Shown here: one piece after another, positions 24,441 through 51,945 of the stretch | Layout of the letters: each line of letters starts with the position of its first letter | Numbering within the stretch: the stretch's first letter is position 1 | Assembly: GCA_019239775.1 (NCBI GenBank) | Contig: JAFAZN010000098.1 | Location: 19,594 to 83,593 of the forward strand | DNA from: Chloroflexota bacterium | GTDB lineage: Bacteria; Chloroflexota; UBA6077; CF-72 | Direction: 5' to 3' | Length of the DNA stretch: 64,000 nucleotides | Translations under genes and position numbers: made by a program | The notes under the pieces: model-generated | The model's input: only the letters and a program-made list of their open reading frames with translations | Told to the model about the DNA's origin: nothing | Databases searched by the model: none

Positions 24441-25334
24441 TTAGCCTTTGATGCCGGTGGTGGCAACTCCTGGGCGGAAGTATTGCTGTAGGGCCAAGAA
24501 GACGAGCACGACGGGTAAGACCAGGATCGTCGAGCCTGCCATCAGCAGGCCATAGTCCGTTGCGTTTTGGCCTACCGCGAAGGTCGCTACGGCGACTGGC
24601 AGGGTGTACATGCGCTCTGAGCTACTCACCACCAGCGGCCAGAGGAAGTTGTTCCAGGACGCCAGGAACGTCAGGATGCCCAGCGTCGCCAGCGGCGCGT
24701 AGCTGATCGGGAACACCACCCTGAAAAAGATGCCGAGCTCACTGGCGCCGTCGATCCGCGCGGCCTCGAGCAGGTCGTCGGGAATGCCCAGCATGAACTG
24801 GCGCATCAGGAAGACGCCGAACGGACCTGCCGCGAACGGCAGGATCAACGCGGGATAGCTGTTGACCAGCCCCAACGTGCTCATCAACACGAACAGTGGC
24901 ACCAGCGTGACGGTGCTCGGCACCATCAACGTGGCCATCACAATCAGGAAGATCTGCTCGCGCCCCGCAAAGTGCAGCTTCGCCAGCGCGTAGCCGAGCA
25001 TCGAGCAGAACAGCAGGTTGGCGCCCACCACGAACACGGCCACCACCAGTGAGTTGAAGAAGAACAGCGGGAAATTGAGCTTCTGAAACAGCGTGGTGTA
25101 GTTGTCGAGCGTTGGCCTGACCGGCAGCAGCGTGGGCGGGAACGCGTGAAGCTCCTGGGCATCTTTGAACGACGAGGCCACCATCCACAGGAACGGTCCC
25201 GCGACCAGCACCAGGCCCAGCGCGAAGACGATGAAGACCCACCAGTTACGCGGCAGCAGCGCCGGCGCGCGATGCGTTTGCGCATCCTTGACGCCAACAC
25301 GTGAGAAAGTTGCGCTATGCGCCGAGACGCTCAT
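24441..25334 (-). CDS. Carbohydrate ABC transporter permease (MalG/UgpE family)
   Basis: Likely start MSVSAHSATF; 'ARIDGASELGIFFRVVFPISYAPLATLGILTFLASWNNFLWPLV' (EAA motif). Confidence 0.92.
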   Translation of the reverse strand: MSVSAHSATFSRVGVKDAQTHRAPALLPRNWWVFIVFALGLVLVAGPFLWMVASSFKDAQELHAFPPTLLPVRPTLDNYTTLFQKLNFPLFFFNSLVVAVFVVGANLLFCSMLGYALAKLHFAGREQIFLIVMATLMVPSTVTLVPLFVLMSTLGLVNSYPALILPFAAGPFGVFLMRQFMLGIPDDLLEAARIDGASELGIFFRVVFPISYAPLATLGILTFLASWNNFLWPLVVSSSERMYTLPVAVATFAVGQNATDYGLLMAGSTILVLPVVLVFLALQQYFRPGVATTGIKG

Positions 25335-25370
25335 GCCTGTCGCCCACACGCGGTCACGCCACACACTGTG

Positions 25371-25562
25371 TTGGCGTTCGACGCCAATGCCCGGCGCAGC
25401 GCGTCAGCAGGGGGGACGCCGCGGGAAGGAGCGACGGAACGGAGCGACTGGCGGCGGGGGCGGCACGCCCCCTGACCAGTGCGAAGCACGCCAGCCGAGC
25501 ATGCTCGGCTGGCCACCGTGGCGCATGCGCCACGGTGCGGAGCCCGCTCATGAGCGGGCTCC
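25371..25562. repeat. Cluster of palindromes/hairpins, including three perfect 24-bp palindromes
   Basis: 25490-25513 GCCAGCCGAGCATGCTCGGCTGGC; 25514-25537 CACCGTGGCGCATGCGCCACGGTG; 25539-25562 GGAGCCCGCTCATGAGCGGGCTCC. Each equals its reverse complement. Additional hairpins at 25456-25472 (GGGGGCG-GCA-CGCCCCC) and 25371-25387 (TTGGCG-TTCGA-CGCCAA). Confidence 0.95.
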
Positions 25563-25574
25563 CTCCAAATGACT

Positions 25575-26474
25575 TCATGTTTCGTTCCTCAACAGGCGGA
25601 ACTGGACCACCGTCACCGCCGCGATCACTACGAACATCGTGTACGCGATTGCGCTGGCGTAGCCCAGGTGAAAAAAGTTGAAGCCCTGCTGGTACATGTA
25701 GATCGACACCGAGAGCGTGCGGTTCAGTGGACCACCCTGGGTCATCACGAAGGGCTCCTCGAAGATTTGCAAGTAGCCGATCGTGGTCATCACCGCCGCG
25801 AACAAGGTGGTCGCGTGCAGCAGGGGCCAGGTGATGCTGCGGAACTCACGCCAGCGCCCGGCGCCGTCGATGCTGGCCGCCTCGTACACCTCGTTGGGAA
25901 TGCCCTGCAGACCAGCCAGGAACAACACCATGGCGTTGCCGAGGTTGCGCCAGACGACGATCGCGGTGATCGTCGGTAGGGCAAGGTTCGGGTCGCCAAG
26001 CCAGTTGACTGGCTGTACGCCAATCATGCGCAGCAGATCGTTCAGGAGGCCGTAGTCCGGGTCCAGCAGAAAACGCCAGATCACCGCGATGGCGACGATG
26101 CTCGTCACCACCGGCAGGTAGTAGCCAACGCGGAAAATGGCACGCAGCCGACCGAGAGCGCGGTTAACGCCGATGGCGGCCGCCAGACCAATAGCGAGCG
26201 TGGCAATGACGCCAAAGACCGTGAACAGGACGGTATTGACCGCGGCCTGGCGAAAGGTTTGATCGGCAAAGAGGGCGCCGTAGTTGGCAAGGCCGACGAA
26301 GCTCGCGCCGAGCGGACTGGCCAGGTCGGCCAGCCCAAAGCTCGTGAAGCTCATCACGAAGGACGCCACTATGGGCAGCGCCATGAATAGCGTGAAGATC
26401 ACCAGGAAGGGCGCGGCGAAGACGTAACCCGCGCTCGTGGTCCTGTGCCTCGCGGCAGCTGTGCTCACAGCCAC
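25575..26474 (-). CDS. Sugar ABC transporter permease (MalF/UgpA family)
   Basis: 299 aa, GTG start; 'AASIDGAGRWREFRSITWPLLHATTLFAAVMTTIGYLQIFEEPFVMTQGGPLNRTLS'. Confidence 0.92.
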   Translation of the reverse strand: MAVSTAAARHRTTSAGYVFAAPFLVIFTLFMALPIVASFVMSFTSFGLADLASPLGASFVGLANYGALFADQTFRQAAVNTVLFTVFGVIATLAIGLAAAIGVNRALGRLRAIFRVGYYLPVVTSIVAIAVIWRFLLDPDYGLLNDLLRMIGVQPVNWLGDPNLALPTITAIVVWRNLGNAMVLFLAGLQGIPNEVYEAASIDGAGRWREFRSITWPLLHATTLFAAVMTTIGYLQIFEEPFVMTQGGPLNRTLSVSIYMYQQGFNFFHLGYASAIAYTMFVVIAAVTVVQFRLLRNET

Positions 26475-26554: not shown

Positions 26555-26855
26555 CACGGAGGTCCAGGAGCCTTCCTGGTTCTCTGTGCAGGGTTTGGGG
26601 CGCTCAACCCGGTGGGTCACGCCAAGACGATCACCCATGAAGGTCCAGGAGCCTTCCTGGTTCTCTGTCCGAGGTCTGGGGCGCTCAAACCGGTGGGTCA
26701 CGCCAAGGCGTTCACCCATGAAGGTCCAGGAGCCTTCCTGGTTCTCTGTGCAGGGTTTGGAGCGCTCAAACCGGTCGGTCACGCCAAGGCGTTCACCCAC
26801 GGAGGTCCAGCAGCCTTCCTGGTTCTCTGTCCGAGGTCTGGAGCGCTCAACACCA
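26555..26855. repeat. 81-bp tandem repeat array with alternating A/B subtypes, between SBP and permease genes
   Basis: 'ggtccagNagccttcctggttctctgt' recurs at 26561, 26642, 26723 and 26804 (81-bp spacing). Copies 1 and 3 carry gtgcagggtttgg; copies 2 and 4 carry gtccgaggtctgg. Confidence 0.95.
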
Positions 26856-26892: not shown

Positions 26893-28155
26893 CTACGGCT
26901 TGTAGATGCTGGTGGCGGCCTGCTGCATGCCCTTGGCGGCATCCTGTGGAGACACCTGGCCCAGGCACGCCTTCTGGAGCCAATCGTTCAGCTGATTGGC
27001 GATCTCTTCCCACTGGGGAATCGATGGCGGCGCCTTCGAGCTGTTGAGCTGATCGCCGAAGACCTTCAACGACTGGTCGCTGGAGATGGTCTGGTCATCC
27101 CAGGCCGACTTCACGGCCGGAAGGTCGTTGATGTCCTTGTACCAGGCGACCTGCGTCGCGGGCTGGGTCATGTACTGCACGAACTTCCAGGCCGCGTCGC
27201 GATTCGGCGAGTTCTTGAACACCGCGAACTCGGCGCCACCGACGAACGAGGTCGAGCTCTGGTCCTTGGGAACCATGGCGGTAGCCCATTTGCCCTCGAG
27301 GTTCGGTGCCGCCTTCTGAATCAGGCTGCGATGCCAGGGTCCCGAGAAGAACATGGGCGTATCGCCAGACACAAAGGTCTGCGTCACGTCGAAACCTTGC
27401 GGCTCGGTCTGCGGCGTCAAGTTCTGCTGGAAGAAGGTGACGTATTCGGTGAGCGCCTTGACGGCCGCGTCACTGTCCAGGGTGAACTGACCGTTCTGCA
27501 TGATGTCGCCGCCGGCTGAGTACAGGAACGGCACGTACTCCTCCCAGTTGTTGCTGGAAAGAGCGATGCCGTACTTGGCACCGGCGCCGTGATATGCCTG
27601 CGCGAGTTTGTTCAGGTCGTCCCAGGTCTGCGGCGACCCGGCTATACCAGCCTGCTGGGCGAGATCGGTGCGGTAGTACAGGACGCGGGTATCGACGTAC
27701 CACGGCACGCCCACGAGCTTGCCGTTGTACGAGCCAGCATCGATGGCGGCTTTGTAGAAGTCGTTCTGGTTGATCGCGCCGGGCACGTCGTCCATGGCGT
27801 TGAGCTTCGAGAACTCGCCGGCCCAGGTCGTGCCGAGCTGCGTGACGTCTGGCGTCTGTTTGCCCGCGACGGCGGTGATCAGCTTGTCATGCGCGACGTT
27901 CCACGGGATCGCGGTCACGTTGACCTTGATGTTCGGATTGGCCTGCTGGAACTGTTGAATGACGTCGCTGTTGCCGAGCTTGTCACCCTCGTCGCCCATG
28001 GCCCACACGGACAACGTCACATTGCCGGTCGTCGCGTTCGAGCCAGACGAAGATGACGACGTCGTACCGCTCGATGCGCCGTTGGAAGAACACGCCACGG
28101 AGAAGACGAGCGCGGCCGCGGCTGCCAACCGCGCAAGATCCGAGATGCGCTGCAT
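26893..28155 (-). CDS. Extracellular sugar-binding protein of ABC transporter (SBP_bac_1 type lipoprotein)
   Basis: 420 aa; N-terminus 'LVFSVACSSNGASSG' lipobox, 'VTLSVWAMGDEGDK', 'AFVGGAEFAVFKNSPNRDAAWKFVQYMTQP'-type C-terminal region. Confidence 0.92.
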   Translation of the reverse strand: MQRISDLARLAAAAALVFSVACSSNGASSGTTSSSSSGSNATTGNVTLSVWAMGDEGDKLGNSDVIQQFQQANPNIKVNVTAIPWNVAHDKLITAVAGKQTPDVTQLGTTWAGEFSKLNAMDDVPGAINQNDFYKAAIDAGSYNGKLVGVPWYVDTRVLYYRTDLAQQAGIAGSPQTWDDLNKLAQAYHGAGAKYGIALSSNNWEEYVPFLYSAGGDIMQNGQFTLDSDAAVKALTEYVTFFQQNLTPQTEPQGFDVTQTFVSGDTPMFFSGPWHRSLIQKAAPNLEGKWATAMVPKDQSSTSFVGGAEFAVFKNSPNRDAAWKFVQYMTQPATQVAWYKDINDLPAVKSAWDDQTISSDQSLKVFGDQLNSSKAPPSIPQWEEIANQLNDWLQKACLGQVSPQDAAKGMQQAATSIYKP

Positions 28156-51539: not shown

Positions 51540-51945
51540 CACCTGGAGGTATCCCTCACGGAGGCGGGTTCCCTGACGCAGGAGTGTTCCCTCACGGAGG
51601 TGTCGCATCACGGAGGTGTGCCTCACGGAGGTATGTCCCTCGAAGGTATGTCCCTCACGGAGTTCCAACCCACGGAGTGATGCCTCCACGCCGTAACAGG
51701 TTTGACCAAGGTATGGACCTCAAAGGTACGTCCCTCACGGAGTTCCAACCCACGGAGTGATGTCTCTAGACAGTAACGGGTTTGACCAGGGTATGGACCT
51801 CAAAGGTACGTCCCTCATGAAGTTCGAACCCACGGAGTGATGCCTCCACGCAGTAACGGGTTTCCACCAAGGTATGGACCTCGAAGGTTTCTCGTACCGA
51901 GTGCAACCCCACGGGACGGCAAACCCGCGGGAGTACAAACCACGA
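51540..51945. repeat. ~16-bp repeat array with embedded 80-bp higher-order repeat, upstream of nuo operon
   Basis: cacggagtgatg recurs at 51671, 51751 and 51831 (80-bp period). The 5' part carries cacggaggt units (tccctcacggaggtgtcgcatcacggaggtgtgcctcacggaggtatg). Confidence 0.9.

Follow-up and report, generated by a model that had tools for sequence, protein, structure and literature searches.

Tandem CATG-centred palindromes between two permease genes of a Chloroflexota bacterium belong to a dispersed family of hairpin repeats

REP hairpins hinder 3' exonucleases, and in the malEFG mRNA of E. coli they serve as a stabiliser or processing block. Across REP, BIME and REPIN elements, stems of 5-13 bp and loops of 2-20 nt have been reported, and a GTAG and a CGTC super-family are distinguished (PMC3733652, PMC8266576). 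CGTC repeats lack a dedicated transposase (PMC3733652), and REP and IS200/IS605 ends are recognised through their folded form (PMC8266576). Tandem CATG palindromes were not found described in the open-licence papers searched, and the family reported here is apparently undescribed.

The locus lies in a stretch of 64,000 nucleotides (the window) from a Chloroflexota genome, between two permease genes of a sugar transporter, both on the minus strand and downstream of a solute-binding protein gene (26893-28155); on the best reading, the array sits inside a transcribed operon gap. Its features are listed in Table 1. A first-pass annotation had placed three perfect 24-bp palindromes centred on CATG at 25490-25562, which proved exact in sequence and position, and two extra hairpins at 25371-25387 and 25456-25472 (the latter GGGGGCG-GCA-CGCCCCC on the plus strand), both of which can be read directly in the DNA. 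In the order of transcription, the stop codon (25575-25577) is followed by five bases, TTTGG, two bases, P1, one base, P2, P3, the core and the second permease gene. The core's outer stem differs on both sides between copies (GCCGC/GCGGC versus GGGGC/GCCCC), and the hairpin at the far edge is, from comparison of the copies, not clearly part of the element. P1, P2 and P3 are the sole loop-free perfect palindromes with arms of at least 9 in the window. At 65.2% GC, composition predicts 0.011 perfect 24-bp palindromes per 64 kb against the three seen, so that three abutting ones with a common centre are far beyond chance. The locus folds strongly, with z scores of -5.5 as DNA and -4.3 as RNA, and because the arms of side-by-side units are mutually unrelated, each unit folds only on itself. 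Two tandem repeats were also observed in the window, one of an 81-bp unit (3.6 copies, 90%) at 26560-26850, between the solute-binding protein and first permease genes, and one of an 80-bp unit (3.2 copies, 87%) at 51629-51888.

Table 1. Features of the array locus and its flanking genes, in window coordinates
Feature	Position	Strand	Remarks
Downstream ABC permease gene, BPD_transp_1	24441-25364	-	start 25364 (GTG), or likelier 25334 (ATG)
Hairpin TTGGCGT-TCG-ACGCCAA	25371-25387		far edge; mostly outside the stretch common to other copies
Dispersed element copy, type A	25384-25573	-	extent drawn from homology with the G000:C245 copy (90% identical)
Core	25408-25472	-	GGGGGCG-TGC-CGCCCCC hairpin (25456-25472), then CGCCGCC..GTCGCTCC..GCGGCG
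Small hairpin GTGCTTCGCAC	25479-25489	-	adjoins P3; in most type A copies
P3 palindrome GCCAGCCGAGCATGCTCGGCTGGC	25490-25513	-	perfect 24 bp, CATG centre; family GCCAGNNGAN
P2 palindrome CACCGTGGCGCATGCGCCACGGTG	25514-25537	-	perfect 24 bp, CATG centre; family CANNNNGGCG
P1, outer palindrome GGAGCCCGCTCATGAGCGGGCTCC	25539-25562	-	perfect 24 bp, CATG centre
Outer tag TTTGG (CCAAA on +)	25565-25569	-	2 bases before P1, 5 after the upstream permease stop
Upstream ABC permease gene, BPD_transp_1	25575-26474	-	stop codon 12 nt from P1

The gap sequence is not confined to this locus. The host genome (G000) is a metagenome-assembled genome of 7.2 Mb in 507 contigs, 91% complete and with 5.09% contamination. 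With the 210-base gap as query (25365-25574, minus strand), the best copy, on contig C245, matched at 90% over 190 bases (query positions 2-191), and there were five further copies at 77-89% as well as many partial ones. The P1 pattern was found at 22 sites in the host genome, and a pattern for CATG triplets gave 20 matches, in 17 of which the middle unit is palindromic, the other three resembling chance background. Genome-wide counts of this kind derive from patterns together with fetched stretches. In 0.68 Mb of fetched host sequence, which was partly selected for containing elements, 45 perfect palindromes have arms of at least 11; CATG is the centre of every one and 41 have arms of exactly 12. 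Hairpins with other loops and stems of at least 10 are few and varied. The suggestion that the palindromes represent a dispersed family is thus borne out, both within the host and by an 89% identical copy in a congener. The further suggestion, of a defined architecture rather than duplication, holds in part: the arms do differ within an array, yet duplication has a share as well, each unit recurring as a module across the genome.

The arrays are of two kinds. Type A arrays, to which the window copy belongs, consist of P1 (GGA...), P2 (CANNNNGGCG) and P3 (GCCAG...) and are followed by a core; type B arrays consist of P1, CCAGGCGGAN and CGCAGSCGAW and are followed by TCGCTGCGCTTGG. The fullest copy, on C412, reads P1-P2'-P3' ... 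P3''-P2''-P1'' over about 380 bp with inverted symmetry, copies on C23 have one end of type A and the other of type B, and the core is also found at other places in the host genome, singly or in inverted pairs. Of 38 pairs of neighbouring units, 37 are spaced by 24 or 25 bases. At the outer ends, TTTGG-NN marks one side and NN-CCAAA the opposite one, this tag preceding the outer palindrome in most copies; a lone P1 between two convergent genes (L088) retains both tags, and TTTGG lies within 25 nt downstream of only 2.4% of 500 other stops. A complete element has inverted arrays at its two ends with the TTTGG tag outermost, and most begin some 11 nt past a stop codon. The C412 copy has the terminal inverted repeats without coding capacity that define a MITE, and the palindromes are short, extragenic, multi-copy and often in inverted pairs, as REPs are, at a moderate copy number (22 for P1). 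The comparison with REP and BIME elements that the annotation had drawn is supported in both shape and location.

The composition of the units suggests what is conserved in them. A tally of 82 units from two Chloroflexota genomes, sorted into five families, gave 108 compensated against 19 one-sided non-consensus stem cells, where cells count copies rather than independent events and several of the one-sided ones are truncations at array edges. In P1, 96.4% of stem positions pair; exchanging second arms at random between copies lowers this to 64% on average. CATG forms the loop of 78 of the 82 units, the exceptions being CGTG (twice), TATG and CAGG, and all four are one-sided changes (Fisher p 0.0008, or 0.004 with the two CGTG counted once, in statistics that ignore the relatedness of copies). 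Such changes break the palindrome and leave the hairpin intact, so that, from these patterns, the conserved unit is most plausibly a CATG-loop hairpin on a 10-bp stem rather than a double-stranded dyad site for a protein. It is accordingly very improbable that the palindromes are double-stranded sites for a dimeric protein; this would account for their perfect dyad symmetry and constant length, but the arms are nearly free in sequence with the symmetry kept, and the centre is asymmetric in all four loop variants. Mismatched stems were too few for a G-U test of RNA versus DNA selection, the internal mismatches all being wobbles or their complements.

Compensatory change need not reflect selection. 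Arm-to-arm copying, by template switching or hairpin repair, could keep the palindromes perfect in arrays that are otherwise neutral, and it predicts symmetric stems and one-sided loop changes equally well; the frequency of C-G to G-C swaps and the small number of mismatched intermediates are also what it would produce. It leaves the fixed 10-bp stem, the near-constant CATG loop and the tag unexplained, however, and other long hairpins are scarce in the host genome, and this explanation is improbable.

The arrays have a marked relation to gene ends. Eighteen stop codons, placed by a simple ORF caller, face an array within 16 nt, at a median of 11 nt and in 13 of the 18 cases at 8-16 nt; for comparison, 3% of intergenic positions fall 8-18 nt past a stop. 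TAG makes up nine of these 18 stops against 143 of 502 elsewhere, an excess that is suggestive only. Within the host, arrays occur inside operons in the window and in a liv-type operon on C23, and some copies sit between convergent genes. On C23, one P1 (L010:4776-4799) was seen to overlap the start of a livG-like gene, whose ATG (MSELLQAKS...) comes from the CATG loop, with GGAG at the palindrome edge at a spacing like that of a ribosome-binding site.

Bidirectional intrinsic terminators might be expected just past stop codons and between convergent genes. Yet in neither direction is the stem followed by a T-tract, the compiled array flanks having their T-rich part before the hairpin and their A-rich part after it whichever way they are read; a scan of the window locus likewise found no T-tract after a GC-rich stem, and the host genome has few strong hairpins whose loop is not CATG. 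Termination is thus an extremely improbable role, and the attenuator proposed in the first-pass annotation is not supported. A host-selected RNA element, which as a stabiliser or processing block of the malEFG kind, in a 3'-UTR or between cistrons, would tune the upstream cistron, agrees better with the stop-codon distances, with the arrays inside operons (including nusG-rplK and atpD-atpC in the actinomycete described below) and with compensatory change, which suits RNA hairpins. Against it stand some 29 array clusters in 0.72 Mb of host sequence (partly picked to contain arrays) beside diverse genes which, where checked, share no common function, several being transporters, a terminal inversion, tag and mixed ends that resemble an element more than a leader, and one actinomycete array in frame within a coding region. 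We consider this reading unlikely, if with a real chance of being correct.

The enzyme known to explain REP elements was looked for in the genomes that carry the family. The annotation had proposed the palindromes as targets of a RAYT (TnpA-REP) protein and a RAYT gene as something to seek; PF01797 (RAYT/Y1_Tnp) is absent from both carriers, the host and the congener G002, which at 91-93% completeness could conceal a missed gene, and it is present in the congener G001, which has no P1. The foot of the outer palindromes bears no GTAG or CGTC tag, the flanks reading TTTGG-NN instead, and the RAYT proposal is not supported by these observations. Rfam at permissive thresholds returned only sub-threshold chance matches, none above the gathering score.

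Beyond the host, the P1 pattern matches at nine sites in G002 (JAFAOS01, Chloroflexota CP_BM_ER_18), where the 89% copy, of type A, also lies, and at none in G001. In 58 other Chloroflexota genomes the P1 pattern gave two matches, a single near-palindrome (G040) and one that is not palindromic, and among the matches listed in a 121-genome triplet scan, palindromic ones were found in the host only. Related inner modules were observed in G001 and G002 as symmetric non-coding elements of roughly 300-400 bp, without CATG arrays; these are GC-rich hairpins in many copies per genome (L149:9340-9880 and L150:14480-14990 in G002, L163:7900-8320 in G001). The P1 pattern matched eight IMG/VR contigs, none with an array, the triplet pattern matched 97 stretches there with no array of differing palindromes at the 80 loci checked, and plasmid and phage collections gave no match. 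Three of the IMG/VR contigs (L190, L201, L203) hold 24-bp spaced repeats with GAGACAACGCATGCGTTGTCTC or one-arm variants, a single repeated sequence rather than differing palindromes. A lone GGAGCCCGCGCATGCGCGGGCTCC palindrome was noted, in one copy, in the Acidobacteria genome FK2.bin45 (L082:4931-4954), 27 bp from a gene end.

In the genome of an unrelated actinomycete, FK1.bin107 (JAJYUP01, G061), tandem 24-bp CATG palindromes stand in groups of three to six at six loci. All eight of its triplet matches are palindromic, and the arms of one locus bear no relation to those of another; in nine further Actinomycetota genomes with high counts, zero triplet matches were palindromic. Three arrays could be placed by names read from translations, in a nusG-/rplK-like gap, in an atpD-/atpC-like gap and in frame inside leuS, where three palindromes (L142:3239-3310 on C117; 72 bp, 24 codons) add VAEPHAAPPRPAHVRADRTAHAPS to a leucyl-tRNA-synthetase-like ORF without a stop. 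The hairpin design is that of the window arrays, whether by descent or by convergence. It is a tentative and on the whole doubtful idea that arrays of CATG loops on 10-bp stems are a signature of structured-DNA or RNA recognition in at least two phyla, in which any stem that pairs will do, and that they represent new mobile arrays or enzyme-made palindromes dependent on an enzyme other than RAYT.

The explanation that we favour, with somewhat better than even confidence, is that the window palindromes form the outer array of a repeat element akin to REP/BIME and MITE sequences, which is non-coding and non-autonomous and has spread within the genus. The inverted terminal arrays of C412, the mixed ends on C23 and the copies or modules in congeners argue that the element is probably mobile. 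Against mobility, no transposase or other enzyme, Y1_Tnp included, is tied to it, and the tight stop-codon distance is unlike random intergenic insertion. By eye, no target-site duplication is evident in the flanks of two-ended copies, which have no empty sites for comparison, and no autonomous copy or parent transposon with matching ends was met among the fetched loci; the congeners are too divergent at the window locus to give an empty/filled pair, so movement is only inferred. Some protein would recognise the folded hairpins by stem shape, CATG loop and tag, on single-stranded or extruded DNA, and would move or copy the element, with gene ends and operon gaps as tolerated sites. Transcription of the array would give the message of the permease operon three stable hairpins side by side, which may stabilise its upstream part; such a stabiliser role would fit the array's position, as 3' exonucleases should be impeded by neighbouring hairpins just past a stop.

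This palindromic repeat family conserves only structure, loop and tag, while its stem sequence is nearly free and stays perfect through compensatory change; it offers a natural way to learn whether palindromes owe their perfection to selection or to copying. It has apparently spread without RAYT, and its 24-mers, tag and arrays are concrete substrates for an enzyme hunt. That an actinomycete has arrays of this design, with arms of unrelated sequence, points either to a broader class that has been overlooked or to lineages converging on a single structural rule.

In work on the double-hairpin elements of Allomyces mitochondria, stem pairing is reportedly kept with variable sequence. These and other repetitive hairpin-forming elements resemble the window family in looking mobile without flanking duplications and in also entering genes (cited in PMC2800124). 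The Allomyces elements differ in being mitochondrial and in having two hairpins and other loops, the likeness being one of description. Rickettsia palindromic elements (RPE) provide a parallel for the leuS array, as palindromic inserts that can keep the frame of the protein gene they occupy; the sequences of RPE families are conserved and are not known to include CATG arrays. Like MITEs and other palindromic elements with terminal inverted repeats, the window family is non-coding, about 190-400 bp long, dispersed and symmetric at its inverted ends, but those ends are arrays of separate palindromes, and neither a target duplication nor a parent transposon was found among the loci examined. With REP, BIME and REPIN elements it shares short, clustered intergenic hairpins that also occur as inverted pairs, a tag left unpaired at the hairpin base and an uneven occurrence among species; unlike them, it has a TTTGG tag with two spacer bases, an exact 10+4+10 design with a CATG loop, abutting tandem units with unrelated arms and near-free stem sequence, and carriers without a Y1 transposase. 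The feature is real and non-random, and the family, REP/MITE-like and apparently undescribed so far, has a parallel in another phylum.
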